64,000 nt of DNA, taken from assembly GCA_016223085.1 (NCBI GenBank), contig JACRPS010000015.1, positions 62,001 through 126,000 on the forward strand, in the 5' to 3' direction. Origin of the DNA: Chloroflexota bacterium (GTDB taxonomy: Bacteria > Chloroflexota > Anaerolineae > Aggregatilineales > Phototrophicaceae). Under the pieces are notes generated by a model. It was not told the origin of the DNA, ran no database searches, and worked only from the letters and a program-made list of their open reading frames with translations. Positions within the stretch are counted from its first letter, which is position 1. Each line of letters starts with the position of its first letter. Of this stretch, positions 1,212 to 59,530 are shown one piece after another. Both the position numbers and the translations under genes were made by a program.

Positions 1212-1224
1212 GCTCATCATCATT

Positions 1225-1254
1225 AGACCGGCGGGCCAACTGTCCGGCCCGTCT
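1225..1254 (+). promoter_or_regulatory. Leader hairpin upstream of rpsO
   Basis: The rpsO 5' leader can form a stem: AGAC at 1225-1228 plus GGGCC at 1233-1237 pair with GGCCCGTCT at 1246-1254, with a four-base bulge. S15 is known to repress its own mRNA through leader structure in several bacteria. Whether this hairpin does so here is inference. Confidence 0.4.
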
Positions 1255-1279
1255 GGATATAACACCAGAGGACGGTACG

Positions 1280-1549
1280 ATGCCAATCTCAAAAGTTGAG
1301 AAAGAAATGCTCATTCGGGAACATGCCCGGCACGATAGTGATACGGGGTCGCCCGAAGTCCAGATTGCCCTGCTGACGAACCGGATTAACCAGTTGACCG
1401 AGCATTTAAAAGCGCACAGCCACGACGAACACTCGCGGCGCGGCCTGTTGAAACTGGTCGGCCAGCGGCGGCGTCATCTACGCTATCTGAGCCAGACAAA
1501 GCCCGATGTTTACCGCGAACTCATTCAAAAGCTGGGGTTGCGCCGTTAG
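1280..1549 (+). CDS. rpsO: 30S ribosomal protein S15
   Basis: S15 is a primary binder of the 16S rRNA central domain and helps form an intersubunit bridge. The 89-residue product has the usual length. It shows the family features: N-terminal basic start, the [19 protein letters not shown] segment near residues 17-35, the [22 protein letters not shown] segment (shortened here to its core [17 protein letters not shown]), and a C-terminal LGLRR. The ATG at 1280 follows an AGAGGACGG ribosome binding site. The gene is followed by pnp 156 bases downstream, the same rpsO-pnp arrangement known from Enterobacteria, and it has its own promoter at 1183-1211. Identity is secure. Confidence 0.97.
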
Positions 1550-1561
1550 TACAGTTGAAAC

Positions 1562-1585
1562 CAGGATGTCCAACCGGGCATCCTG
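1562..1585 (+). terminator. Hairpin after rpsO
   Basis: CAGGATG (1562-1568) pairs with CATCCTG (1579-1585) around a 10-base loop, and an ATTTTTAT stretch follows at 1591. This is a weak intrinsic terminator, or the 3' stabilising hairpin of the rpsO message. Confidence 0.45.
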
Positions 1586-1601
1586 TTGCCATTTTTATCG
1601 C

Positions 1602-1690
1602 AGCCTGGCAGGGCAGGAATTGGAATGTGAGGCTAAACCGCGATGGTTAGCAGCACCTTCCAGTCCCTGGCTGCCAGGCTTTTCCTTTTA
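1602..1690 (+). promoter_or_regulatory. Long-range stem-loop with T-rich tail in the pnp leader
   Basis: AGCCTGGCAG (1602-1611) and CTGCCAGGCT (1671-1680) form a perfect 10-bp stem closing a 59-base loop. TTTTCCTTTTA follows directly and the pnp ribosome binding site comes next. It could be an attenuator or, as in E. coli pnp, a processing and autoregulation structure. The base pairing is seen; the function is inference. Confidence 0.5.
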
Positions 1691-1705
1691 GAGGAGACAG
1701 ACACA

Positions 1706-4078
1706 ATGACGGATAATGGAATGGGCGTGAATCACCGTTATACGGCCCGGTTGGGCGGCAGCGAACTGGTGATTGAGACAGGCCGGCTGGCCGAACAGGC
1801 CGGCGGCGCGGTGACGGTGATGGAAGGTGACACGATGGTGTTTGCCACCGCCACCATGAGCAAAAAGCCGCGTGAGGGGATTGATTTCTTCCCCCTGAGC
1901 GTGGACTACGAAGAAAAACTGTATGCTGCCGGGCGGATTCCTGGCAGCTTCTTCCGGCGCGAGGGCAAACCGTCTGACCAGGCAATTCTGGTCGGGCGCG
2001 TGGTGGACCGCCCGCTGCGCCCGCTGTTCCCGAAGGACCTGCGCAATGAAGTGCAGGTGATTCTGACGGCTTTCAGCCACGACCAGGAGCATCACGTGGA
2101 TATGCTGGGCATTATCGCGGCCAGCACCGCCCTGATGATCTCCGACATCCCCTGGGATGGACCGGTTGGCGCGGCACGCGTCGGTCTGATTGACGGCGAA
2201 CTGGTGGTGAACCCGACCATCTCCGAGATGGAAAATAGCAGTCTCGATCTGCGCGTGGCCGGTACGGCGGACGCCATCAACATGGTGGAATGCGGCGCGA
2301 CCGAAGTGGACGAGGAAACGATGCTGCGGGCGCTGAAGCTGGCACACGAGGCGATCCAGGACGTGATCGCCGTGCAGAAGCGGATGCGGGAGGAGATTGG
2401 CAAGCCGAAGTCCGAATACACCAGCTTCAAGCTGGACGAAAGCCTCCAGGCGGAAGTCGCCGGCAAGGTGCGCGACCGTGTGCGCCAGATCATAACTGAG
2501 AAAACTGACCGCGATGGCCGTAACGAAGCGCTGGACGCGCTGCGCGACGAACTGGTGGCCGAATACGAAGCCCGCAATAAGACGATTGAAGACCCTGAGC
2601 AGCAGGTGTCTACCAAAGCGGTGGCGGAGGCACTGGACACTGTACTGAAGGAAGAAGTCCGCCGCCGCATTGTGGAAGACGGCGTGCGCCCGGATGGCCG
2701 TGATTACCGCACGATTCGCCCGCTGGCGGCGGAGGTGCGGGTTATCCCGCGTGTACATGGCTCCGGGCTGTTCAAGCGCGGCCAGACGCAGGTGCTGACA
2801 GTGGCGACGCTGGGTACACCTGGCGATGCGCAGGAACTGGACGGCCTCAGCCCGGAAGACGCCAAGCGTTACCTGCATCACTACAACTTCCCGCCCTATT
2901 CAACCGGCGAAACGTCACCGCTGCGCGGCCCCAAGCGCCGCGAGATCGGGCATGGCGCGCTGGCAGAAGCGGCGCTGCGGCCCATGATTCCGCCGGAGGA
3001 TGAATTCCCGTACACCATCCGGCTGGTCAGCGAAGTGCTGAGTTCCAACGGCAGCACGTCCATGGGCAGCGTGTGCGCCAGCACTCTGTCCCTGATGGAC
3101 GCGGGCGTGCCGCTGATTCGCCCGGTGGCCGGCATTGCGATGGGGCTGATTAAGGAAGGCGATCAGGTCGCTGTGCTGACGGACATTCAGGGGTTGGAAG
3201 ACCACCTGGGGGATATGGACTTCAAGGTGGCGGGCACGGAACGCGGCATCACCGCGCTGCAAATGGACATCAAGATCAAGGGCGTGACCGACGAGATCAT
3301 GCGGCAGGCGCTGGCGCAGGCGCGGGAAGCGCGGCTGCAAATCCTCGACCTGATTCTAAGCGTCATCCCGGCCCCGCGTCCTGAACTGAGCGAATACGCG
3401 CCGCGCATCACGACGGTAAAGATCAACCCCGAAAAGATCGGCGCGCTGATCGGCCCCGGCGGCAAGACCGTGCGCGCGATTCAGGAACGTTCTGGCGCGA
3501 AGATTGACATCCAGGAAGACGGCACGGTGTTTGTCTCCAGCGTGAACGCCGCAGCCGCGCAGCAGGCCGTTGACGAGATTCGCGGCCTGACGGAAGACGC
3601 GGAGATCGGGCGTATCTATACCGGGCGCGTCACCCGCATCGAGCCGTATGGCGCGTTTGTGGAATTCCTGCCCGGCAAGGAAGGCATGGTGCATATCTCG
3701 CAGCTGGCCGATTACCGCGTGGAGTCGGTTGAGAGCGAAGTAGCGCTGGGCGACGAGATCATGGTGATGGTCACGGACGTGGACGACGGCGGCAAGGTGC
3801 GCCTCAGCCGGCAGGCGGTGCTGGAAGGCTGGACGGCAGAAGAAGCCCGCGCCCGCGACTCGCGGCGGGGCGGCGGTGGCCGTTCCGGCGGCGGTGATCG
3901 CGGCGGCGAGCGGCGGGGTGGCGGTGATCGTGGTGGCGACCGGGGCGGCTATCGTGGCGGTGGAGAGCGTGGCGGCGACCGGGGCGGCTATCGCGGCGGT
4001 GATCGCGGTGGCGACCGGGGCGGCTATCGTGGCAACCGGGGCGGCAATGGTGGCGACCGGGGTGGTGACCGCTCCTAA
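1706..4078 (+). CDS. pnp: Polyribonucleotide nucleotidyltransferase (PNPase) with an RGG-rich tail
   Basis: PNPase degrades RNA 3' to 5' by phosphorolysis and can add tails in reverse. The 790-residue chain has two RNase PH cores (about 10-230 and 320-550) separated by the all-helical domain. The second core carries the conserved active-site [19 protein letters not shown] region and the acidic residues of [20 protein letters not shown] domain ([19 protein letters not shown]) and an S1 domain ([18 protein letters not shown]) follow. The last ~65 residues are an unusual tail of RGG, DRGG and YRGG repeats. The ATG at 1706 is chosen because GAGGAGAC lies just upstream; a frame extension to 1643 runs through the leader stem. 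rpsO precedes it. Confidence 0.97.
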
Positions 4079-4295: not shown

Positions 4296-5843
4296 GTGAA
4301 CCCCCCGCCTGTCACTTCCCCCGCCTGGACCGGGCGTACCAAGCGGTACGTCGCCATGTTTGTTGTCGTCATTATCGGGCTGGCGCTGCTGCGGTTCAGC
4401 GAAACCATCCCGATTGTGATCGTGGCAGTGATTCTGGCCTATCTGCTGACGCCGCTGGCACAGTGGATTGATTCGCGCGTGCTGGCGTTTGGCCCGTTTA
4501 AGGGGCGCGATCATCGTGGCCTGTCGGTGCTGCTGACGTTTGTGCTGGTGATCGCGGTCATTATTGTGGTGATTCTGGTGGTGATACCCGGTATCGTCAA
4601 CCAGTTTGAGGAATTTGGCAGCCGCATCCCGCCGCTGCTGGAAAGCCTGGGGCGGACGCTGGAGCGCAGTTTAAGCCACCCGATTACAATTGGCGGCGAA
4701 CCGATCACGATCAACGGCGAACCAATTATCCCACTGGAACAACTGCGGGAGATCACCGGCACGCCGGGCAATCAGGAAGTGCTGCGGTTGCAGGATTTGA
4801 ATCTGGTGGATGCAACGCGCTCGTTTATCAGCACGCTGACGCTGCCGGCGTTCAGCTTCCTGGGCGGGGCGCTGACGGCCATCATCAACATCATTTTCCT
4901 GCTGTCCATGATGTTTTACCTCATCCGCGACGGCTCGATCTTCGCCGAGAAACTGATCGAAGCGACGCCGCGTACCTATCGCAGCGACCTGCGCCGCATC
5001 CTGTACGAACTGGGGCAGGTGTGGAACGCTTACCTGCGTGGCCAGCTTACGCTGAGTCTGGTGATGGGTACGACGGTGTTTGTCGTCGCCACGTTGCTAG
5101 GCGTGCCAAACCCGCTGATTCTGGGGCTGATCTCCGGCCTGCTGGAGTTCATCCCCAGCATTGGCTCCGGGTTGGCGATTTTCCCGGCGGCGCTGCTGGC
5201 GCTGTCGTCGCGTTCTACTACCCTGCCGTTTCTGGAAGGCACGGCCTTCGCCGTTGTGGTGGTTATCGTGTGGGCGATTTTGCAGAACATCGAGGCGATT
5301 GTGCTGGTGCCGCGCATCATGGGCGGCAGCCTGAATCTGCACCCGTTTGTGGTCATTGTGGCGGTGATTATCGGCGCCAGTCTGGCCGGGGCGCTGGGGG
5401 TGATCCTGGCGGCGCCGGCGGTTGCCAGCCTGCGGGTTCTGGGGCAATATATTTATGGGAAGCTGCTGGATCAGGACCCGTTCCCACCGCCGCGACCGCG
5501 CCGCTACCAGCCGCTAACGGCGATCAGTATCGTGCAGCGGGTGTGGGAGTTTGACAAACAGTTAGTGCGTGGCGCAGCAGCCGACGCCCGGCGGGCGTGG
5601 CAGAGCGAACGGGCGCGGGCATGGCGGGCGCGGGTCAGCCGGACGCTGCGGAACGAGCGCATCCGGCGTGTCTTCCAGAATGAGCGCGTGTGGCAGTTCA
5701 GCGCCTGGCTGCGCCGGCGGCTGCCGCTGGTACAGGCGCGTCAGTCCGCGGAGCAGGTGCGGGCCTGGCTGCGCCGCGAGTCGGTCCGCAGTTTTGGGAC
5801 GCAAATCCGCAACCTGGTGAGGAGGAACGAAGACCATGCCTAA
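4296..5843 (+). CDS. AI-2E family (UPF0118) membrane permease with a long basic C-terminal tail
   Basis: This is a polytopic inner-membrane protein of the AI-2 exporter/PerM family. That family moves small molecules or ions; the substrate here cannot be told. It starts with two hydrophobic segments (about 20-50 and 75-105), then a soluble region, then the family core around residues 185-385 with segments such as SFLGGALTAIINIIFLL and PLILGLISGLLEFIPSIGSG. Family members usually have 350-400 residues; this one has 515. The extra ~115 residues (400-515) are strongly Arg/Trp-rich, with imperfect repeats of the type NERIRRVFQNERVW. The GTG start at 4296 is the first suitable codon; no strong ribosome binding site is seen. 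Its stop overlaps the start of the next gene, so the two are probably translated together. Confidence 0.88.
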   Translation: MNPPPVTSPAWTGRTKRYVAMFVVVIIGLALLRFSETIPIVIVAVILAYLLTPLAQWIDSRVLAFGPFKGRDHRGLSVLLTFVLVIAVIIVVILVVIPGIVNQFEEFGSRIPPLLESLGRTLERSLSHPITIGGEPITINGEPIIPLEQLREITGTPGNQEVLRLQDLNLVDATRSFISTLTLPAFSFLGGALTAIINIIFLLSMMFYLIRDGSIFAEKLIEATPRTYRSDLRRILYELGQVWNAYLRGQLTLSLVMGTTVFVVATLLGVPNPLILGLISGLLEFIPSIGSGLAIFPAALLALSSRSTTLPFLEGTAFAVVVVIVWAILQNIEAIVLVPRIMGGSLNLHPFVVIVAVIIGASLAGALGVILAAPAVASLRVLGQYIYGKLLDQDPFPPPRPRRYQPLTAISIVQRVWEFDKQLVRGAAADARRAWQSERARAWRARVSRTLRNERIRRVFQNERVWQFSAWLRRRLPLVQARQSAEQVRAWLRRESVRSFGTQIRNLVRRNEDHA

Positions 5844-8873: not shown

Positions 8874-8902
8874 GTAGGGGAGGGTCTTAGACCCTCCCCT
8901 AC
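8874..8902. repeat. GTAGGGG palindrome upstream of the P5C dehydrogenase gene
   Basis: GTAGGGGAGGGTC and GACCCTCCCCTAC form a perfect 13-bp stem around TTA. It is a relative of the Family A palindromes (same GTAGGG/CCCTAC ends) and lies 38 bases before the next start. A TACAAT at 8847-8852 could be a -10 box, but I find no matching -35. Confidence 0.8.
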
Positions 8903-11997: not shown

Positions 11998-13287
11998 ATG
12001 AGTTTGTCTACGAATAACAGCCAACCCGAACCATCAGAGTTTCAGCGTTTATTGGAATCGTCTGAATTCTCGTATACGCCACCCCGCCGGGGTGAAATTC
12101 GCAACGCGATCATCCTTCAGATTGATGAGCGCGAAATCATTGTGGACATGGGGGCGAAGCAGGATGGCATCGTCCCGGCGCAGGACCTGGAACGGCTGGA
12201 CCCGGAAGTCCGCAACAGTCTGAAGATCGGCGCGGAAGTGCCGGTGTATGTCTTAAACCCGCGCGACCAGGATGATAACCTGATCGTCTCCATTAACATG
12301 GGCTTGCAGCAGTACGACTGGGAAAAGGCGCGCCAACTGCTGAAGTCGGAAGAAGTAGTCGAAGTGACGGTAACCGGCCACAACCGGGGCGGTATCCTCG
12401 TGCGCTGGAACCGGCTGGAAGGCTTTATCCCCAGTTCGCACCTGGTTTCGATCAATATGTCGAACGAACGCCGTGACCTGTGGAACGAGGTCATGGACAA
12501 AAAGCTGGGCGTGAAGGTGATCGAGGTAGACCAGGACCGCCGCCGTCTGATCTTCAGCGAACGCGAGGCGCAGAAGGAATGGCGCGCGCACCAGAAGGCG
12601 CGTCTGCTGGCTGAACTCAAGGAAGGCGATGTCGTCAAGGGCACGGTTACGGGTCTGCGTGACTTCGGCGCGTTTGTGAACCTGGGCGGCGCGGACGGCC
12701 TGATTCACGTCAGCGAACTGGCGTGGCATCGGGTTGACCACCCGCGCGATGTGCTGAAGGTCGGCGACGAGATTGACGTGTACGTGCTGAATCTCGACCG
12801 CGACTCGAACCGGATTGCGCTCAGCCGCAAGCGCCTGCTGAACGACCCCTGGGAAGACGCCGACAAGCGTTACCATGAGGGCCAGCTGGTCGAAGGCACG
12901 GTTACAAACGTGGTGGACTTCGGCGCGTTTATCGCGCTGGATGACGGCCTGGAAGGGCTGCTGCACCTGAGCGAGATGGGCGATGGCTCGCTGAAAGAGC
13001 CGTACAGCTATGTGAAGAAGGGCGACCGCCTGAGCCTGCGCATCAGCCACCTGGAGCCGGAGAAACGCCGCGTGGGATTCACCCAGCGGTGGGGCACAGA
13101 TGTGGGTGCTGAAGGGGGCGAGGGAGTGAGCGCGGAAGCGCCACCGGCGGAAGCCACGCCAACGCCGGAGGAGCTACCGGCAGCGGAGGCGCCCGCCGAG
13201 GATGTACCAGCAGCAGAAGCGTCTGCTCCGCCGGAAGCGGCAACGCCGGAAGAACAGCCGGAGAACGAAGGCGAAAACAACGTTTAA
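11998..13287 (+). CDS. rpsA: S1 RNA-binding domain protein (ribosomal protein S1-like), first of two paralogues
   Basis: The 429 residues contain four S1 (OB-fold) domains: about 28-100, 113-180, 200-270 and 287-355. The third is the most typical (GDVVKGTVTGLRDFGAFVNL, then GADGLIHVSELAWHRVDHP). Bacterial S1 helps the 30S subunit bind mRNA; four-domain forms occur outside the Proteobacteria. The C-terminus (about 365-429) is a Glu/Ala/Pro-rich disordered tail. The ATG follows GCAGGAGAATTGG. A terminator follows at 13293, and a second paralogue starts 270 bases downstream with its own promoter. Assignment as the ribosomal S1 equivalent is likely but could apply to either copy. Confidence 0.88.
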   Translation: MSLSTNNSQPEPSEFQRLLESSEFSYTPPRRGEIRNAIILQIDEREIIVDMGAKQDGIVPAQDLERLDPEVRNSLKIGAEVPVYVLNPRDQDDNLIVSINMGLQQYDWEKARQLLKSEEVVEVTVTGHNRGGILVRWNRLEGFIPSSHLVSINMSNERRDLWNEVMDKKLGVKVIEVDQDRRRLIFSEREAQKEWRAHQKARLLAELKEGDVVKGTVTGLRDFGAFVNLGGADGLIHVSELAWHRVDHPRDVLKVGDEIDVYVLNLDRDSNRIALSRKRLLNDPWEDADKRYHEGQLVEGTVTNVVDFGAFIALDDGLEGLLHLSEMGDGSLKEPYSYVKKGDRLSLRISHLEPEKRRVGFTQRWGTDVGAEGGEGVSAEAPPAEATPTPEELPAAEAPAEDVPAAEASAPPEAATPEEQPENEGENNV

Positions 13288-13292
13288 CCTCC

Positions 13293-13323
13293 TGCCCGCT
13301 GTGATGAAAGCAGCGGGCATTTT
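13293..13323 (+). terminator. Intrinsic terminator after the first S1 gene
   Basis: TGCCCGCTG (13293-13301) and CAGCGGGCA (13311-13319) form a 9-bp stem followed by TTTT. Confidence 0.85.
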
Positions 13324-13352
13324 CCCCTCTTAAGGTTGAGTTCGCAGGATTA

Positions 13353-13381
13353 TTGACAAACGATATTCCAATTTGTATAAT
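13353..13381 (+). promoter_or_regulatory. Consensus sigma-70 promoter of the second S1 gene
   Basis: TTGACA (13353-13358), a 17-base spacer and TATAAT (13376-13381): both hexamers match the consensus exactly. It is the strongest promoter by sequence in this window and gives a leader of about 170 bases before the start codon. Confidence 0.9.
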
Positions 13382-13486
13382 CTGCAACTGGTCTTTAGGG
13401 AAGGGTAGCGCCCACCAACCGGCGCTTGCGCTGCGACTGGACCCGCGCTCTTTTTCAGCTCATAGCTTCCATGCTCGGTCGTCATG

Positions 13487-13557: not shown

Positions 13558-14796
13558 ATGCAATCCAATACTTCAACTCCGGTGGACGTCATGGATTTTG
13601 CGGCGCTGCTGGAAGCGTCGTTTGTCGAAGAGCCGGAGCGCGGTGACATTGTTACCGGCACCATTCTAGCGGTGGATAACCAGGGCTTGATCGTTGACGT
13701 TGGAGCGATGAAGCGCGACGGTATCGTGCCGCGCAAGGACATCGAGCGGTTGGGACTGGATACCAGTGCTTACCATGTGGGCGACGAGGTGGAAGTCATC
13801 GTGCTGCGCCCGGAAGACGACGATGGCAACCTGATTCTGTCGGTCTCGCAGGCGCAGCAGAGCGAGGACTGGAAGCGGGCCGAAAACCTGATGGCGAATG
13901 ACGAAGTGTTTGAAGGCGCCGTCGCCGATGTCAACCGGGGTGGTTTGATTATCCCCTTCGGCAACCTGCGCGGGTTTGTCCCGGCCAGCCACGTAGTAGA
14001 CCTGCCGCGTGGCATCAACGAGGACGAACGCAAAGACCACATGATGAAGCTGCTCGGCAAAAAGGTCACGGTGAAGGTGATCGAAGTGAACCGCAAGCGC
14101 CGCCGCCTGGTCTTCAGCCAGCGCGATGCCCAGCGGGGCCGCCGTGAAGCCCGCAAGGAACTGCTGCTGGACGAACTGAAGGAAGGCGAGGTTCGTAAGG
14201 GCGTGGTCAGCGGCCTGCGCGATTTTGGCGCGTTTGTTGACCTGGGCGGAGCTGACGGTCTGATCCACATCTCCGAACTGGCCTGGCACCGGGTGAAGCA
14301 CCCGCGCGAAGTATTAAATGTTGGCGATGAAGTAGAGGTGTACGTGCTGCGGCTGGACGCTGAAGGCAAGCGGATTGGCCTAAGCCTGAAGCGGATGCAG
14401 AAGAACCCGTGGGCGGCAGCGGAAGAAATGTACCATGTTGGTCAACTGGTCGAGGGTGTGGTCTCCCGCGTGGCGCAGTTTGGCGCGTTTATCAGCCTGG
14501 ACCCCGGCATTGAAGCCCTGCTGCACGCCAGCCAGGTGGCAGACCCCGCGCCGGCAGACCCCAGCGTAATGCTGTACGAAGGGCAAAGGCTGCTGCTGCG
14601 GGTCATCAGCATTGAACCCGACCGCCAGCGGCTGGGACTGAGCCTGAAAGACGTGACGGACGAAGAAAAGGAACGCTGGCAGGAACGCCAGCAGGTTGCT
14701 GAACTGCCAGCCGCCGAAGAAGAATCCACCGAAAGTAACGATGGCGGAAACGCGGCTGATCCGGTAGAATTGGAAACAGATCAAGCAACGGTTTAA
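13558..14796 (+). CDS. S1 RNA-binding domain protein, second paralogue
   Basis: The 412 residues contain four S1 domains that are collinear with those of the preceding gene. Shared stretches include GLRDFGAFVDLGGADGLIHI and SELAWHRVKHPREVLNVGDE. The C-terminal tail is shorter and acidic. The two genes are clearly a tandem duplication, though too diverged to be recent. The start is set at ATG 13558, nine bases after GGGGG (13544-13548); ATG 13549 is too close to that site, and a frame extension to 13426 runs through the terminator hairpin. It sits behind the consensus promoter and leader terminator described above. Which paralogue serves as ribosomal S1 is not decidable here. Confidence 0.87.
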   Translation: MQSNTSTPVDVMDFAALLEASFVEEPERGDIVTGTILAVDNQGLIVDVGAMKRDGIVPRKDIERLGLDTSAYHVGDEVEVIVLRPEDDDGNLILSVSQAQQSEDWKRAENLMANDEVFEGAVADVNRGGLIIPFGNLRGFVPASHVVDLPRGINEDERKDHMMKLLGKKVTVKVIEVNRKRRRLVFSQRDAQRGRREARKELLLDELKEGEVRKGVVSGLRDFGAFVDLGGADGLIHISELAWHRVKHPREVLNVGDEVEVYVLRLDAEGKRIGLSLKRMQKNPWAAAEEMYHVGQLVEGVVSRVAQFGAFISLDPGIEALLHASQVADPAPADPSVMLYEGQRLLLRVISIEPDRQRLGLSLKDVTDEEKERWQERQQVAELPAAEEESTESNDGGNAADPVELETDQATV

Positions 14797-38561: not shown

Positions 38562-38589
38562 GTAGGGACACGATATATCGTGTCCCTAC
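38562..38589. repeat. Perfect Family A palindrome in a 5' leader
   Basis: Half-sites GTAGGGACACGATA and TATCGTGTCCCTAC, a perfect 28-base palindrome. It lies between the -10 box and the ribosome binding site of the B12-binding gene. Confidence 0.9.
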
Positions 38590-48922: not shown

Positions 48923-48944
48923 TCGTAACAGAAAATAACAGGTT

Positions 48945-48972
48945 GTAGGGACACGATCTATCGTGTCCCTAC
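48945..48972. repeat. Family A palindrome
   Basis: GTAGGGACACGATC and TATCGTGTCCCTAC, a nearly perfect 28-base palindrome after the MBL-fold gene. Confidence 0.88.
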
Positions 48973-48992
48973 AGAGGTGATCAAGACGAATC

Positions 48993-55117: not shown

Positions 55118-58100
55118 ATGAGCTTTCAACATAATTTCGTGCATCTCCATGTCCACACCGAATATTCGCTGCTGGACGGATTAAGCCGGATTGACCATCT
55201 GGTTGAACGGGCAAAATCGCTGAACATGCCCGCGATTGCCATCACCGATCACGGCGCGATGTTCGGCGTGATTGACTTCTTCCGCGCCTGCAAGGCTGCC
55301 GAGATCAAGCCAATCATTGGAATGGAAGCCTATCTGGCGCGGCGGTCGCGCTTCGACAAGGACCCGAAGCTGGACAAACGCCCCTACCACATGCTGCTAC
55401 TGGCGCAAAACCAGACCGGCTACCTGAATCTGCTGAAACTCGCCAGTCTGGCGCAACTGGAAGGCTATTATTATCGCCCGCGGATTGACCGCGATCTGCT
55501 GGCGCAGCACGCCGAGGGCTTGATCGCCACGTCCGGTTGTCTGGCGGCGCAGATTCCAACGATGGTGATGGAAGGCCGCGACAACGAGGCGCGCGAACTG
55601 ATCGGTTGGTATCAGGACGTGTTTGGCGCGGACAACTTCTATCTTGAACTCCAGCAGCACGACATCCCCGAACTGGAAACGCTGAACCGGTGGCTGATCG
55701 AATACCGCAAAAGCGGCCACAGCACCGTGCCGCTGCTGGCGACCAACGACGTGCATTACGTCATGAAAGAGGATTACGACCCGCACGATACGCTGCTGTG
55801 CATCCAGACCGGCGCGCTTAAAAGCGAAACCGACCGGCTGCGGATGTCCGACCCCAGCTACCATCTGACGACGCCGGAGGAGATGTGGGGCTTCTTTGGC
55901 GATGCCGCGCCAGAAGCGATTCACAATACGCTGAAGGTAGCCGAAATGTGCGAGGTGAACCTCGACACAAAGGGCTATCACCTGCCGGTATTCCCCGTGC
56001 CAGAGGGTTACGACTCTACCAGCTATCTGCGCTACCTGTGTGAGAAGGGCTTGCGCTGGCGCTACGGCGCCGGGGCAGATGACCCGGAGGTGCGCGCCCG
56101 GCTCGACCGCGAACTGCAAATCATCGGCGACATGGGCTTTAACACCTACTTCCTGATCGTATGGGACTTGTGCCAGTACGCCCGCCATGCCGATATCTGG
56201 TGGAACGTCCGCGGCAGCGGCGCAGGCAGCGTGGCCGCCTATTCGCTTGGCATCACCAGCATTGACCCGATTCAGAACAATCTGCTGTTTGAACGCTTCC
56301 TCAATCCCGGGCGTGTCAGTATGCCGGACATTGATATGGACTTCCCCGACGACCGGCGCGAGGAGATGATTACTTACGCCGCCCGCAAATACGGGGAGGA
56401 CAAGGTGGCGGCGATCATCACCTTTGGGACGCTGGGGCCAAAAGCTGCCGTGCGCGACGTGGGCCGGGCGCTGGGCGTGCCACTGGAAGTGGTCAACCAG
56501 GCGGCGCGGCTGATTCCGCAGGAGCCAAAGCCGAAGCCGCTGATGGAGTATGTTGAAGGCAACCCCGAACTGAAAGAGCTGTATGAGAAACAGAGCGAGA
56601 TCAGGCAGATTGTAGACACTGCCGTGCATTTGCAGGGCGTTAACCGTCACGCTTCCACCCATGCGGCGGGTGTGATCGTGGCCGACAAACCGCTAGTAGA
56701 ATATCTACCGCTGCACAAGCTGACCAACGAAGATCAGGCGGAAACCAGCGCCCTGCGCGCCGTGACGCAGTTCCCGATGGAAACCTGCGAGTCCATTGGC
56801 CTGCTGAAGATTGATTTCCTCGGCCTGTCCACCCTGACGATCTTCCGCAAGGCGTGCGATTTGATCGCGCAGCATCATGGCATCAACTACAGTATGGACA
56901 ACGTTCCGTACCGTCCCAGCGGTGACCCCAAAACCGATGAGATGCTCAGGCAGGCATTTGAGATGATCGGGCGCGGCGAAACGGTGGGGGTGTTTCAGGT
57001 TGAAAGTACCGGGATGCAGCAGATGCTGCGCGACATGCGCCCGACGAAGTTTGAGCACATCATCGCGGCGGTGTCGCTCTATCGCCCCGGTCCGATGGAT
57101 TTTATCCCGCTGTATAACAAGCGCCTGCGCGGGGAGGAAGAAATCGAGTATCGCCATCCTCTATTAAAATCTATCCTAGAAGAAACCTACGGGATCATCA
57201 TTTATCAGGAACAACTGATGCAGATCGCAGGCAAATTGTTCGGCTACGAACTGGGTGAAGCCGACCTGATGCGCCGCGCGGTCTCGAAGAAGAAGGAAAA
57301 AGACCTCAAGAAACACCGGGATATTTTCCTGGAACGCGGCCCGGAACACGGCGTTGATGTCGAATCAGCCAACAAAATTTTTGACGACATCGAGTTTTTT
57401 GCCAACTACGGCTTCAACAAGTGTGTGGTGTATGATACCAAAATTGTGGATGCCGATACAGGCCGCCTTGTGAAGATTGGCGACCTCGCCACTGGCAAAG
57501 CACAGGTGCAGCATACGCTGACCTGCGACCTCGATATGCTGCGCCTCAAACCCGGCAAAATCACCGATGTGATGTTTAACGGCGTTAAGCCCGTTTACCG
57601 TCTGACCACACAATTAGGCCGCCAGATTGAAGCCACAGCCAACCATCCCTTCTATACGTTTGACGGCTGGCGGATGCTGGGCGAATTACGGGTGGGCGAT
57701 CAGATTGCTGTGATGCCGCCAGGGGCTGGAAGCCGCCCGGCTGAACAGGAAAGCCTCCTTCAGGAGGCTGAAAATTCAGGATATGCGGGTGGTATTCAGC
57801 CCTCTAAAGAGGGCTTCTGGCGTTCAGCCGTAGGCTTTGAGCCTGCGGCGGTTGCGGCGGATGAGTCCGGTCTTGCCTGGGACACTATCGCCTCCATCGA
57901 ATACATCGGCGAACAGCCCACCTATGATCTGACAGTTGAGGGTACACACAACTTTATTGCCAACGATATTCTGGTGCATAATTCACACGCCGCTGACTAC
58001 GCGGTGATTACCTGCCAGACAGCGTTCCTCAAGTGCCACTATCCCGCCGAGTACATGACGGCGCTGCTCTCGGTCCACCGCGACGACAGCGCGAAGGTCA

Positions 58101-59530
58101 GCCACTTCCTGGCGGAGTGCCGCCGCCTGAATATCCCGGTGCTGCCGCCAGATGTGAACTACAGCCAGATGGATTTTGACATTCAGCGCCAGCCGAACGG
58201 CACGCGCGGCATCCGGTTTGGGCTGGTTGCCATCAAAAACGCCGGCGAAGGACAGTTGCGGTATATCCTCGACGCGCGCGCCGATGGTGAGCCGTTCACC
58301 AGTCTGGAAGATTTCTGCCGCCGGGTGGATTTGCGACAGGTGGGCAAGCGCACGCTCGAAAGTCTGGTGAAAGTCGGCGCGCTGGATGCGCTCGCGCCCC
58401 GCGCCCAATTGTGTGGCGCGGCGGCGATTGACCGCATGATGAGCTTCAGCGCCGACTATCACAAGGCCAGAGAGATCGGCCAGATGAGCATGTTCGGCGG
58501 CGCAGATGGCATGACGGATACGCTCAAGCTGCCGCCGGCAGAGGACGTGACCGACCGCCAACTGCTGACCTGGGAAAAAGAACTCCTCGGCCTGTACGTT
58601 ACCGGTCGCCCGGTGGACAAAGCCCGCGAAGTGCTGCAATATTCCAACACGCTGGATGTAGCGCAGATGAAAGAAGATGCGGCGGCGATGGCCGGTAAAA
58701 CCGTCAAGCTGGCGGGCGAGGTGGCGGCGCTGCGAAAAATCGTCACCAAAAACGGCCAGATGATGGCGGTCATCCAACTGGAAGACTGGCACGACTCGGC
58801 AGCCTCGATTGAAGTGGTGCTGTTCCCGCGCACCTGGGATAAATTCCACGAGCAGGTTGCAGAAGGAAATGTGCTGGTTGTCACCGGCAAGGTAGACACG
58901 GGGCGCGGCGATGCGCAGATCGTTTGTGATGAAATTCGCCAGAATCCTGATGTTGTTGTGCCTGATGAGACGGCTTATACAGCCGTTTTGCCGCCGATGC
59001 CATACATGCCCCCGCCGCTGGACGAACCGCCACCCTGGGCGCTGGAGGAGCAGTACGACGAGGAAACCGGCGAACTGCCGCAGCCGCAGCATATCCCCGA
59101 ACCGGAACCGGCAGTGGTCGCGCCGGCGACCCAGGGTGCGCTGGCCGCGCCGGTGCCAACGCTGGAGCCGCAGTTTGCGCCGCAGCCCGCTGCGCCGGAA
59201 CCGGACTGGGAAACGGATATGCCGGACTTCCTGCTGGAACCCGAGTCGCAGCTGCCAGCGCAGCGGTGGGTGATGGTCTACTTCCAGCGTTCCGGCGACC
59301 CCGAAAAAGACCGCCGCAAGCTGCGCCGCCTGCACGGCATCCTCACCAAATATCCCGGCCAGGACCGCTTCAGTGTGGTGGTCGAGGGCAAAGGCCAGTC
59401 GTTTACGATGGAGTTCCCGAACCACACGACGGCTTACTGCGACGATCTACTGGCCGACCTGTACAGTATTGTTGGCGACCAGAACGTGGAAGTATTTGAG
59501 CGCCCGGTGACGCTGGTGTCGGAAAGCTGA
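55118..59530 (+). CDS. dnaE: DNA polymerase III alpha subunit containing an in-frame mini-intein
   Basis: The replicative polymerase chain. Of 1470 encoded residues, 187 form an intein (57422-57982), leaving about 1283. Domains: PHP (FVHLHVHTEYSLLDGLSRID with its metal-binding His), palm with the catalytic triad in PDIDMDFPDDRR, thumb/fingers with NRHASTHAAGVIVADKPL and YRPGPMDFIPLY, then the helix-hairpin region and an OB fold (KLAGEVAALRKIVTKNGQMM). The last ~200 residues add a Pro/Glu-rich linker and a C-terminal domain. The intein interrupts FANYGFNK/SHAADYAV. It lacks a clear Shine-Dalgarno. pfkA follows. Confidence 0.95.
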   Translation: MSFQHNFVHLHVHTEYSLLDGLSRIDHLVERAKSLNMPAIAITDHGAMFGVIDFFRACKAAEIKPIIGMEAYLARRSRFDKDPKLDKRPYHMLLLAQNQTGYLNLLKLASLAQLEGYYYRPRIDRDLLAQHAEGLIATSGCLAAQIPTMVMEGRDNEARELIGWYQDVFGADNFYLELQQHDIPELETLNRWLIEYRKSGHSTVPLLATNDVHYVMKEDYDPHDTLLCIQTGALKSETDRLRMSDPSYHLTTPEEMWGFFGDAAPEAIHNTLKVAEMCEVNLDTKGYHLPVFPVPEGYDSTSYLRYLCEKGLRWRYGAGADDPEVRARLDRELQIIGDMGFNTYFLIVWDLCQYARHADIWWNVRGSGAGSVAAYSLGITSIDPIQNNLLFERFLNPGRVSMPDIDMDFPDDRREEMITYAARKYGEDKVAAIITFGTLGPKAAVRDVGRALGVPLEVVNQAARLIPQEPKPKPLMEYVEGNPELKELYEKQSEIRQIVDTAVHLQGVNRHASTHAAGVIVADKPLVEYLPLHKLTNEDQAETSALRAVTQFPMETCESIGLLKIDFLGLSTLTIFRKACDLIAQHHGINYSMDNVPYRPSGDPKTDEMLRQAFEMIGRGETVGVFQVESTGMQQMLRDMRPTKFEHIIAAVSLYRPGPMDFIPLYNKRLRGEEEIEYRHPLLKSILEETYGIIIYQEQLMQIAGKLFGYELGEADLMRRAVSKKKEKDLKKHRDIFLERGPEHGVDVESANKIFDDIEFFANYGFNKCVVYDTKIVDADTGRLVKIGDLATGKAQVQHTLTCDLDMLRLKPGKITDVMFNGVKPVYRLTTQLGRQIEATANHPFYTFDGWRMLGELRVGDQIAVMPPGAGSRPAEQESLLQEAENSGYAGGIQPSKEGFWRSAVGFEPAAVAADESGLAWDTIASIEYIGEQPTYDLTVEGTHNFIANDILVHNSHAADYAVITCQTAFLKCHYPAEYMTALLSVHRDDSAKVSHFLAECRRLNIPVLPPDVNYSQMDFDIQRQPNGTRGIRFGLVAIKNAGEGQLRYILDARADGEPFTSLEDFCRRVDLRQVGKRTLESLVKVGALDALAPRAQLCGAAAIDRMMSFSADYHKAREIGQMSMFGGADGMTDTLKLPPAEDVTDRQLLTWEKELLGLYVTGRPVDKAREVLQYSNTLDVAQMKEDAAAMAGKTVKLAGEVAALRKIVTKNGQMMAVIQLEDWHDSAASIEVVLFPRTWDKFHEQVAEGNVLVVTGKVDTGRGDAQIVCDEIRQNPDVVVPDETAYTAVLPPMPYMPPPLDEPPPWALEEQYDEETGELPQPQHIPEPEPAVVAPATQGALAAPVPTLEPQFAPQPAAPEPDWETDMPDFLLEPESQLPAQRWVMVYFQRSGDPEKDRRKLRRLHGILTKYPGQDRFSVVVEGKGQSFTMEFPNHTTAYCDDLLADLYSIVGDQNVEVFERPVTLVSES
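57422..57982 (+). other. Mini-intein (187 residues) inside DnaE
   Basis: The protein-splicing element starts with Cys1 (CVVYDTKIVDADTG), has block B (ATANHPFYTFDGWRML, with the TxxH-like NH), and ends with blocks F and G (DTIASIEYIGEQPTYDLTVE, then NFIANDILVHN). The last residue is Asn and the +1 residue is Ser. The extein reads FANYGFNK then SHAADYAV, which restores a continuous DnaE sequence. There is no DOD homing endonuclease domain: the ~50 residues between the two splicing halves are encoded by palindromic DNA. The insertion is four residues downstream of the split DnaE intein site known in Cyanobacteria. Splicing is inferred from intact motifs. Confidence 0.93.
57752..57815. repeat. 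Palindromic repeats inside the intein
   Basis: AGCCTCCT/AGGAGGCT (57752-57769) and AGCCCTCT/AGAGGGCT (57798-57815) form two short hairpins; weaker AGCC/GGCT pairs flank them on both sides (57731-57742 and 57826-57835). All are translated in frame as the intein linker. Confidence 0.85.

Follow-up and report, generated by a model that had tools for sequence, protein, structure and literature searches.

A dispersed palindromic repeat at the homing-endonuclease position of a DnaE intein in a Chloroflexota bacterium

An intein without endonuclease in dnaE

The window, which here means the whole 64,000-nucleotide stretch of DNA that was analysed, belongs to a 6.03-Mb draft genome of 37 contigs and contains a dnaE gene interrupted by an intein that lacks a homing endonuclease (HEN). 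The gene, the two splicing parts of the intein and the hairpin-rich linker between them are laid out as follows (the repeat and its hairpins are given without a strand).

55118–59530, plus strand: dnaE, DNA polymerase III alpha subunit, intein host (1470-aa open frame, intein models)
57422–57982, plus strand: DnaE intein, 187 aa, from Cys1 to His-Asn followed by Ser, without HEN (intein profiles, AlphaFold2/Foldseek)
57422–57712, plus strand: N-terminal splicing part, residues 1–97 (93% identity to the HEN-bearing L218 intein)
57713–57862, plus strand: replaced stretch, residues 98–147, predicted to be disordered; L218 has its residues 98–385 there
57863–57982, plus strand: C-terminal splicing part, residues 148–187 (73% identity to L218)
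57714–57852: full-length copy of a dispersed four-hairpin repeat of ~140 bp (covariance model R1, minus-strand match of 87.0 bits)
57718–57741: outer hairpin 1, imperfect, counterpart of GCCGGACG..CGTCCGGC in other copies (by eye; helix counted in 21 other copies)
57752–57769: inner hairpin 2, perfect 8-bp arms, 2-nt loop, AGCCTCCT/AGGAGGCT
57798–57815: inner hairpin 3, perfect 8-bp arms, 2-nt loop, AGCCCTCT/AGAGGGCT
57827–57849: outer hairpin 4, imperfect, ten pairs including one G-T (by eye; helix counted in 21 other copies)

Intein models matched both flanks of the linker region in profile searches, and the protein shows the hallmarks of a Hint domain: a splicing-domain profile, Cys1, a TxxH block, a C-terminal His-Asn and Ser at position +1. 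Residues C1, T72, N74, H75, H186 and N187, invariant across 44 intein sequences, are all retained. An AlphaFold2 model of the 187 residues gave pLDDT values of 96–98 for the blocks of the splicing fold and 43–62 for the blocks covering residues 101–150, and it matched solved mini-inteins with a best Foldseek E-value of 2.1e-14. With no endonuclease domain and 187 aa, as compared to 425 aa in L218, the intein can itself be classed as a mini-intein. Its intact motifs suggest that it still splices. The repeat-encoded peptide most likely forms a disordered loop where the HEN would be and would be removed along with the intein.

The first-pass annotation had described four hairpins in the linker, two of them with perfect 8-bp arms, and both the two exact inner hairpins and two imperfect outer ones were found. 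The linker also holds a perfect 9-bp long-range pair between CGGCTGAAC (57738–57746) and GTTCAGCCG (57822–57830). Codon-shuffled linkers led to an expectation of 0.03 hairpins compared to the two seen, and the predicted fold of positions 57714–57852 beat those of 200 out of 200 shuffles (RNA z −6.1, DNA z −3.9). Neither of the 18-mers forming the inner hairpins has a second place in the 64-kb window at up to three mismatches. A second type of palindrome, with perfect arms of 13–14 bp, lies elsewhere in the window at 1141–1168, 8874–8902, 38562–38589 and 48944–48973; it reads GTAGGGAC...GTCCCTAC or GTAGGGGA...TCCCCTAC and resembles the intein-linker palindromes of genomes G002 and G056 described below.

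The linker is a copy of a dispersed repeat

The linker is homologous to a repeat family dispersed through the same genome. The covariance model R1, built from 21 copies of the family with the intein copy excluded, finds the intein copy over its full length (87.0 bits, E 6.7e-18; the plus-strand match, at 57715–57853, scores 73.8 bits). The borders proposed at first, 57722–57840, thus enclose the right region and are slightly narrow. At E ≤ 0.01 the model gave at least 136 matches in the genome, which correspond to at least 125 distinct places after removal of 11 opposite-strand duplicates; as 150 of 3413 first-look candidates were scored, the family size is a lower bound. Simpler searches yielded a similar picture. 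With the 161-bp linker stretch as query, BLAST found 50 matches in the genome at E ≤ 10 when the query itself is counted; the strongest of the rest reaches E 2e-8, and four others cover most of the stretch at 68–70% identity. The central 18-mer has 40 matches with up to three mismatches on both strands, again including itself, compared to two for the reversed control. The intein copy is diverged, with 70% identity to the best other match covering most of the linker, and its donor can therefore not be named.

The repeat is a near-palindrome of ~140 bp made of two inverted halves, and each half contains one outer and one inner hairpin. Over the 21 copies, 93.7% of the cells in the four helices are paired, and 19 double-sided changes were counted compared to 4.3 in shuffles, figures that are favoured by the structure having been drawn from the tested sequences and that related copies can push above shuffles. 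The four-helix structure also outscored the same structure slid by one to three columns. Inverted palindromes forming hairpins with compensatory changes are what characterizes REPINs, and the repeat resembles them in this respect. A fixed GTAG or CGTC tag, as in the REP superfamilies, was not found: several copies read CGTC before the first stem, which had suggested such a tag, and this idea was rejected when the four bases in front of the stem proved variable, with CGTC in 14 and CGCC in 16 of the 112 places (out of 125) scored by a simple pattern. Nor was a target-site signature found for the family, and a plasmid-origin search with one member gave no match. By eye, the flanks of loci L094, L100, L113 and others contain a further outer inverted repeat around the four-hairpin core, which reads roughly GCACCAAGATAACG at one end and the reverse complement at the other and is missing from the intein copy.

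The family appears to have expanded in this species, and at the depth searched (150 of 1217–3413 first-look candidates scored per genome) 16 other genomes of the genus gave no match at E ≤ 1e-9. Within the genome, 39 of the 125 places overlap an open reading frame of at least 100 codons on either strand, including two, the intein and locus L190, where the coding sequence of a gene continues beyond both ends of the copy; Pfam tests of 10 of the other 37 revealed no domain spanning the copy. Separately, locus L104 (1445–2122) has a copy in the initial part of an open frame whose end encodes an SH3_3 domain, and the start codon of this frame may lie downstream of the copy.

What the repeat replaced

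The closest intein found, L218, carries a HEN segment at the position of the linker, in agreement with the earlier statement that the linker sits where endonucleases usually reside. The similarity between the two inteins breaks off after residue 97 and resumes at residue 148, from where it extends over the last 40 residues, and the window intein has 50 residues where L218 has 288. BLASTP gave no alignment of residues 98–147 to L218, and the repeat copy covers nearly all of the 50 replaced residues. The suggestion that a palindromic repeat had been inserted in frame and kept as linker is supported by the in-frame position and the full-length family match.

In a tree of the splicing parts, L218 and L275, both 425 aa long, have the shortest paths to the window intein; L241 is drawn adjacent to the window on a very long branch, and its placement is unsure. 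As the nearest inteins are of this HEN-bearing length, the loss of the HEN and the filling of its slot look recent on the sequence comparison, with which the absence of the family from the 16 other genomes of the genus agrees. The possibility that relatives use the same element as linker was rejected, since R1 gave a best match of E 0.22 against 16 other intein loci; relatives have other palindromes or none. Looking for the same units beyond the intein, as the first-pass annotation had proposed, was thus rewarded in the genome and not in the homologous inteins, some of which hold palindromes of other kinds.

Palindromes in other DnaE inteins

Two further HEN-less inteins carry hairpins of different sequence in the same slot. 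The linker of the G002 intein has two GTAGGGAC... hairpins and that of the G056 intein has GTAGGGGC... hairpins, while the linker of the G010 intein was read without finding palindromes. Both linkers have counterparts elsewhere in the genome that carries them. For the G002 linker there are 39 others at E < 1e-5, of which 14 are identical over 27 nt; for the G056 linker there are eight others at E ≤ 5e-6. In SJ143 (L238, genome G061), the genome holds one further exact copy of a linker 29-mer, alongside six related sequences. GTAG stands at the start of the linker palindromes of G002, G056 and G061, and it is part of the stem in G061 and in one of those in G056. The first-pass annotation had named two results which together would count against an insertion: an unrelated linker of equal length in homologous inteins, and a lack of such repeats elsewhere. 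The first is approached by the inteins of G056 and G002, whose unrelated linkers, at 55 and 61 aa, are similarly long, but the repeats exist elsewhere, and the palindromes of these very linkers recur in the respective genomes.

A survey was made of 87 inteins: 80 DnaE-site loci yielded 74, to which 13 from 396 more genomes and the window were added, and L232, whose end had been set wrongly inside the HEN, was left out of the hairpin count. Six of the 80 loci gave no complete intein by the patterns used, three having another N-junction sequence and three no C-end in frame; 45 further loci or stretches, with G408 and G420 left out, included 26 repeats of earlier inteins, five without intein and the window's own. 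Hairpins were defined by arms of at least 8 and loops of 2–10 nt, the expectation was taken from codon shuffles, and linkers below 235 aa were classed as having a lost or shortened HEN. The 22 inteins of this class, window included, contain 12 hairpins compared to 1.28 expected, as opposed to eight compared to 10.58 in the 65 HEN-sized inteins. Without the window, G002 and G056, which had raised the idea, seven hairpins remain compared to 1.22 in 19 inteins (P 0.00027), and with arms of at least 10 there are six compared to 0.08. The Poisson values given here assume independent hairpins, an assumption that fails where one linker contains several. For linkers of up to 110 aa without those three, the single hairpin in seven inteins compared to 0.15 expected is not significant (P 0.14).

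Among the 22 inteins whose HEN is lost or shortened, eight bear hairpins and 14 have none at the threshold used. Recurrence of the palindromes in the own genome was examined for four of the eight (window, G002, G056 and SJ143) and found in each; the remaining hairpin-bearing inteins are L224, L237, L239 and L314. No such hairpin occurs in L228, L233, L241, L269, L287 and L294, all with linkers of up to 100 aa, and eight relatives have intermediate, shortened HENs with linkers of 112–209 aa. On a tree that took 52 of the 87 inteins, the distribution of the eight hairpin-bearing among 11 other HEN-less or shortened inteins requires seven label changes (gains or losses), at least four of which are forced by well-supported branches. 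Filling of the HEN slot with palindromes is common without being the rule. The 396 extra genomes contributed one further shortened intein (L314 of G021, the earlier L079, with one hairpin) and 12 HEN-sized inteins, all without hairpins, and this enlargement is no strong independent test of recurrence. In G012, two intein N-part matches within one open frame of 2124 codons (C21:88345–91098) suggest that its DnaE carries more than one intein.

A second in-frame copy in a membrane protein

The other copy inside a gene, at C27:65876–66013 (41.9 bits), is an in-frame part of a PTPS_related membrane protein (PF10131; locus L190). At E ≤ 0.001 each of the 16 other genomes of the genus has a match to this protein, with paralogues counted, and in the best loci of G005, G006, G007 and G016 the ~45-residue insert is simply missing. 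None of the 11 loci read in relatives holds the window's repeat family at this site; in G012 a perfect palindrome of another kind, with arms of 13 bp, stands there, and G003 has, by eye, GTAGGGGC...CACCCCTAC. The site is likely a tolerance hot spot for palindromic inserts. Viewed together, L190 (1–2343, C27:64676–67018), L299, L300 and L308 represent one PTPS_related site at which the inserts differ per genome: the window's family in its own genome (G000), a CCCCCTCTCC type in G012 and, partially and by eye, in G008, and a GTAGGGGC type, also by eye, in G003.

Transposase genes beside repeat copies

The genome has three matches to Y1_Tnp, and repeat copies lie beside two of them. One of these genes (C8:13469–13813) sits between copies at 13278–13407 (36.9 bits) and 13974–14120 (127 bits), and the other (C10:5821–6168) has a copy upstream at 5654–5794 (48.5 bits). 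Both gene products pass the NCBIfam cut-off for IS200, while they score 34.6 and 26.5 against a cut-off of 80 for REP-associated transposases (RAYT); the RAYT assignment considered from the Y1_Tnp matches was hence downgraded to IS200. At one place per 48 kb, copies beside two transposases are by our own estimate unlikely to arise by chance, though the surprise is only modest if copies favour intergenic DNA. An IS200/IS605-type transposase is the likely mover of the repeat, as judged from these two genes with adjacent copies. The third and weaker Y1_Tnp match (L063, C8:173134–173466) lies inside an open frame of 1043 codons, with no repeat match near it among the R1 matches listed.

Origin of the linker

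The reading that we favour, with a probability of roughly 0.86, is that the HEN was lost and that its slot now contains an in-frame copy of a REPIN-like palindromic mini-element resident in this genome, as part of a process recurrent in Chloroflexota. The repeat family would have expanded in this species, moved by an IS200/IS605-type transposase. The DnaE intein would have lost its HEN, presumably before an in-frame copy came to occupy the slot between the halves of the splicing fold. The insertion would have survived because the slot is an intein loop: the ~46 encoded residues would be cut out, mature DnaE would never carry them, and their presence would probably be neutral. Palindromes of several families would settle in the same way in decaying or vacated HEN slots of Chloroflexota DnaE inteins, and palindromic repeats would also settle in at least one site of an ordinary membrane protein.

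The alternative that survives best concerns the route of entry, namely that the repeat arrived by illegitimate recombination or template switching during HEN loss and not by transposition. The borders of the repeat lie close to those of the replaced segment, no more than a few residues off at one end and some ten bases off at the other, which together with the lack of a fixed tag speaks for such an event. Against it, the family occupies no fewer than 124 further places, IS200-type transposase genes adjoin some of them, and relatives show an empty and almost clean version of the membrane-protein site; we regard this route as unlikely, though a serious contender.

A bolder version of the favoured reading reverses cause and effect: the palindrome insertion itself would break the HEN and turn a homing intein into a non-homing one, with the linker being a splicing-sheltered niche that accumulates mobile palindromes repeatedly across Chloroflexota. 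We hold this version to be rather doubtful.

The hairpins could instead be kept for a job in mRNA or DNA, such as pausing, termination control or dnaE regulation, with the protein being incidental. The strong predicted RNA fold (z −6.1), the two perfect inner stems and the co-variation of stems across the family would all suit this, but the co-variation is that of the dispersed family as a whole and fits mobility equally well. Relatives also manage without a hairpin or with another palindrome, and the single Rfam match lies far below its gathering score, which makes a regulatory role improbable as the reason for the linker.

That the linker is a shrunken remnant of the HEN, with hairpins arising by chance or codon bias, could draw on the intermediate HENs of the eight relatives with linkers of 112–209 aa; it is very improbable given the full-length match to the dispersed family (E 6.7e-18), the failure of residues 98–147 to align by BLASTP with the HEN-bearing L218 and the two hairpins compared to 0.03 expected, and chance or codon bias is rejected by the repeats in the genome, the R1 match and the codon shuffles alike. 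Finally, a repeat wrongly joined into dnaE during assembly is conceivable in a draft of 37 contigs, where repeats can mislead assemblers, but it is extremely improbable in view of the divergence of the intein copy from the other copies found, a frame open over 1470 codons, the invariant residues retained in both splicing halves and linkers of the same kind in inteins of other species.

Relation to known palindromic elements

Capture of a mini-element, as favoured here, has its closest parallels in palindromic elements described from other bacteria. The Rickettsia palindromic elements (RPEs) are ~150 bp long and present in many copies, some of them in frame within unrelated proteins (PMC10969869). 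The repeat described here is likewise a many-copy palindrome found in frame in unrelated proteins; the likeness meant here is one of description. It differs in that nearly half of the RPEs lie inside open reading frames according to the same MITE review (PMC10969869), whereas two of 125 places were found inside genes here, for which reason the idea of many in-gene copies as in Rickettsia was rejected, and in that one of the two sites is an intein, from which the insert would leave the mature protein.

REPs have been reported inside open reading frames in several species, many in genes of DNA replication and repair, with one intragenic REP in dnaE of R. conorii, different REPs at about the same site in recB of two Xanthomonas species and GTAG repeats from Chloroflexi (PMC3733652); the word intein is missing from the main text of that article. 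Such GTAG- or CGTC-tagged REPs have a fixed tag, which the window's family lacks, while the linker palindromes of G002, G056 and G061 start with GTAG. The first-pass annotation had considered the origin of this protein sequence unusual, and so it is, though in the light of these two articles it has precedents.

REPINs consist of an inverted pair of palindromes forming hairpins with compensatory stem changes, some beside a Y1-type transposase gene (PMC3116915). The repeat shares the inverted hairpin palindromes, the compensatory changes and the location of some copies near Y1-type transposases, but it has four hairpins in place of two REPs and a spacer, and the neighbouring transposases are called as IS200 and not RAYT. 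With respect to a possible derivation from IS200/IS605 elements, copies flank the C8 tnpA on both sides and lie upstream of that of C10. HEN-less mini-inteins of solved structure (Ssp DnaB, Npu DnaB, Mtu RecA) have the same splicing fold with a linker in the HEN slot; the linker of the window intein differs in being a dispersed palindromic element. Among the titles and abstract openings of the open-access literature covered, no report was found of palindromes filling the HEN slot of inteins. In-frame palindromic elements in proteins are thus known, and what is new is the place: a REPIN-like element occupies the slot left by the HEN of an intein, as other palindromes do in other species.

Implications

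If the insertion does break the HEN, one selfish element would disarm another. In either case, protein sequence here derives from mobile palindromes that are mostly non-coding, and it does so where the least cost is to be expected, since a new peptide inside an intein would be spliced out. As different palindromes occupy the same slot in different species, a natural series is available, running from full HENs over shortened HENs to palindrome-filled and short linkers. Palindrome linkers mark insertion-tolerant positions for intein engineering, and the series lets one ask how HENs decay, what material the linkers of mini-inteins come from and which kinds of sequence are able to turn into protein.
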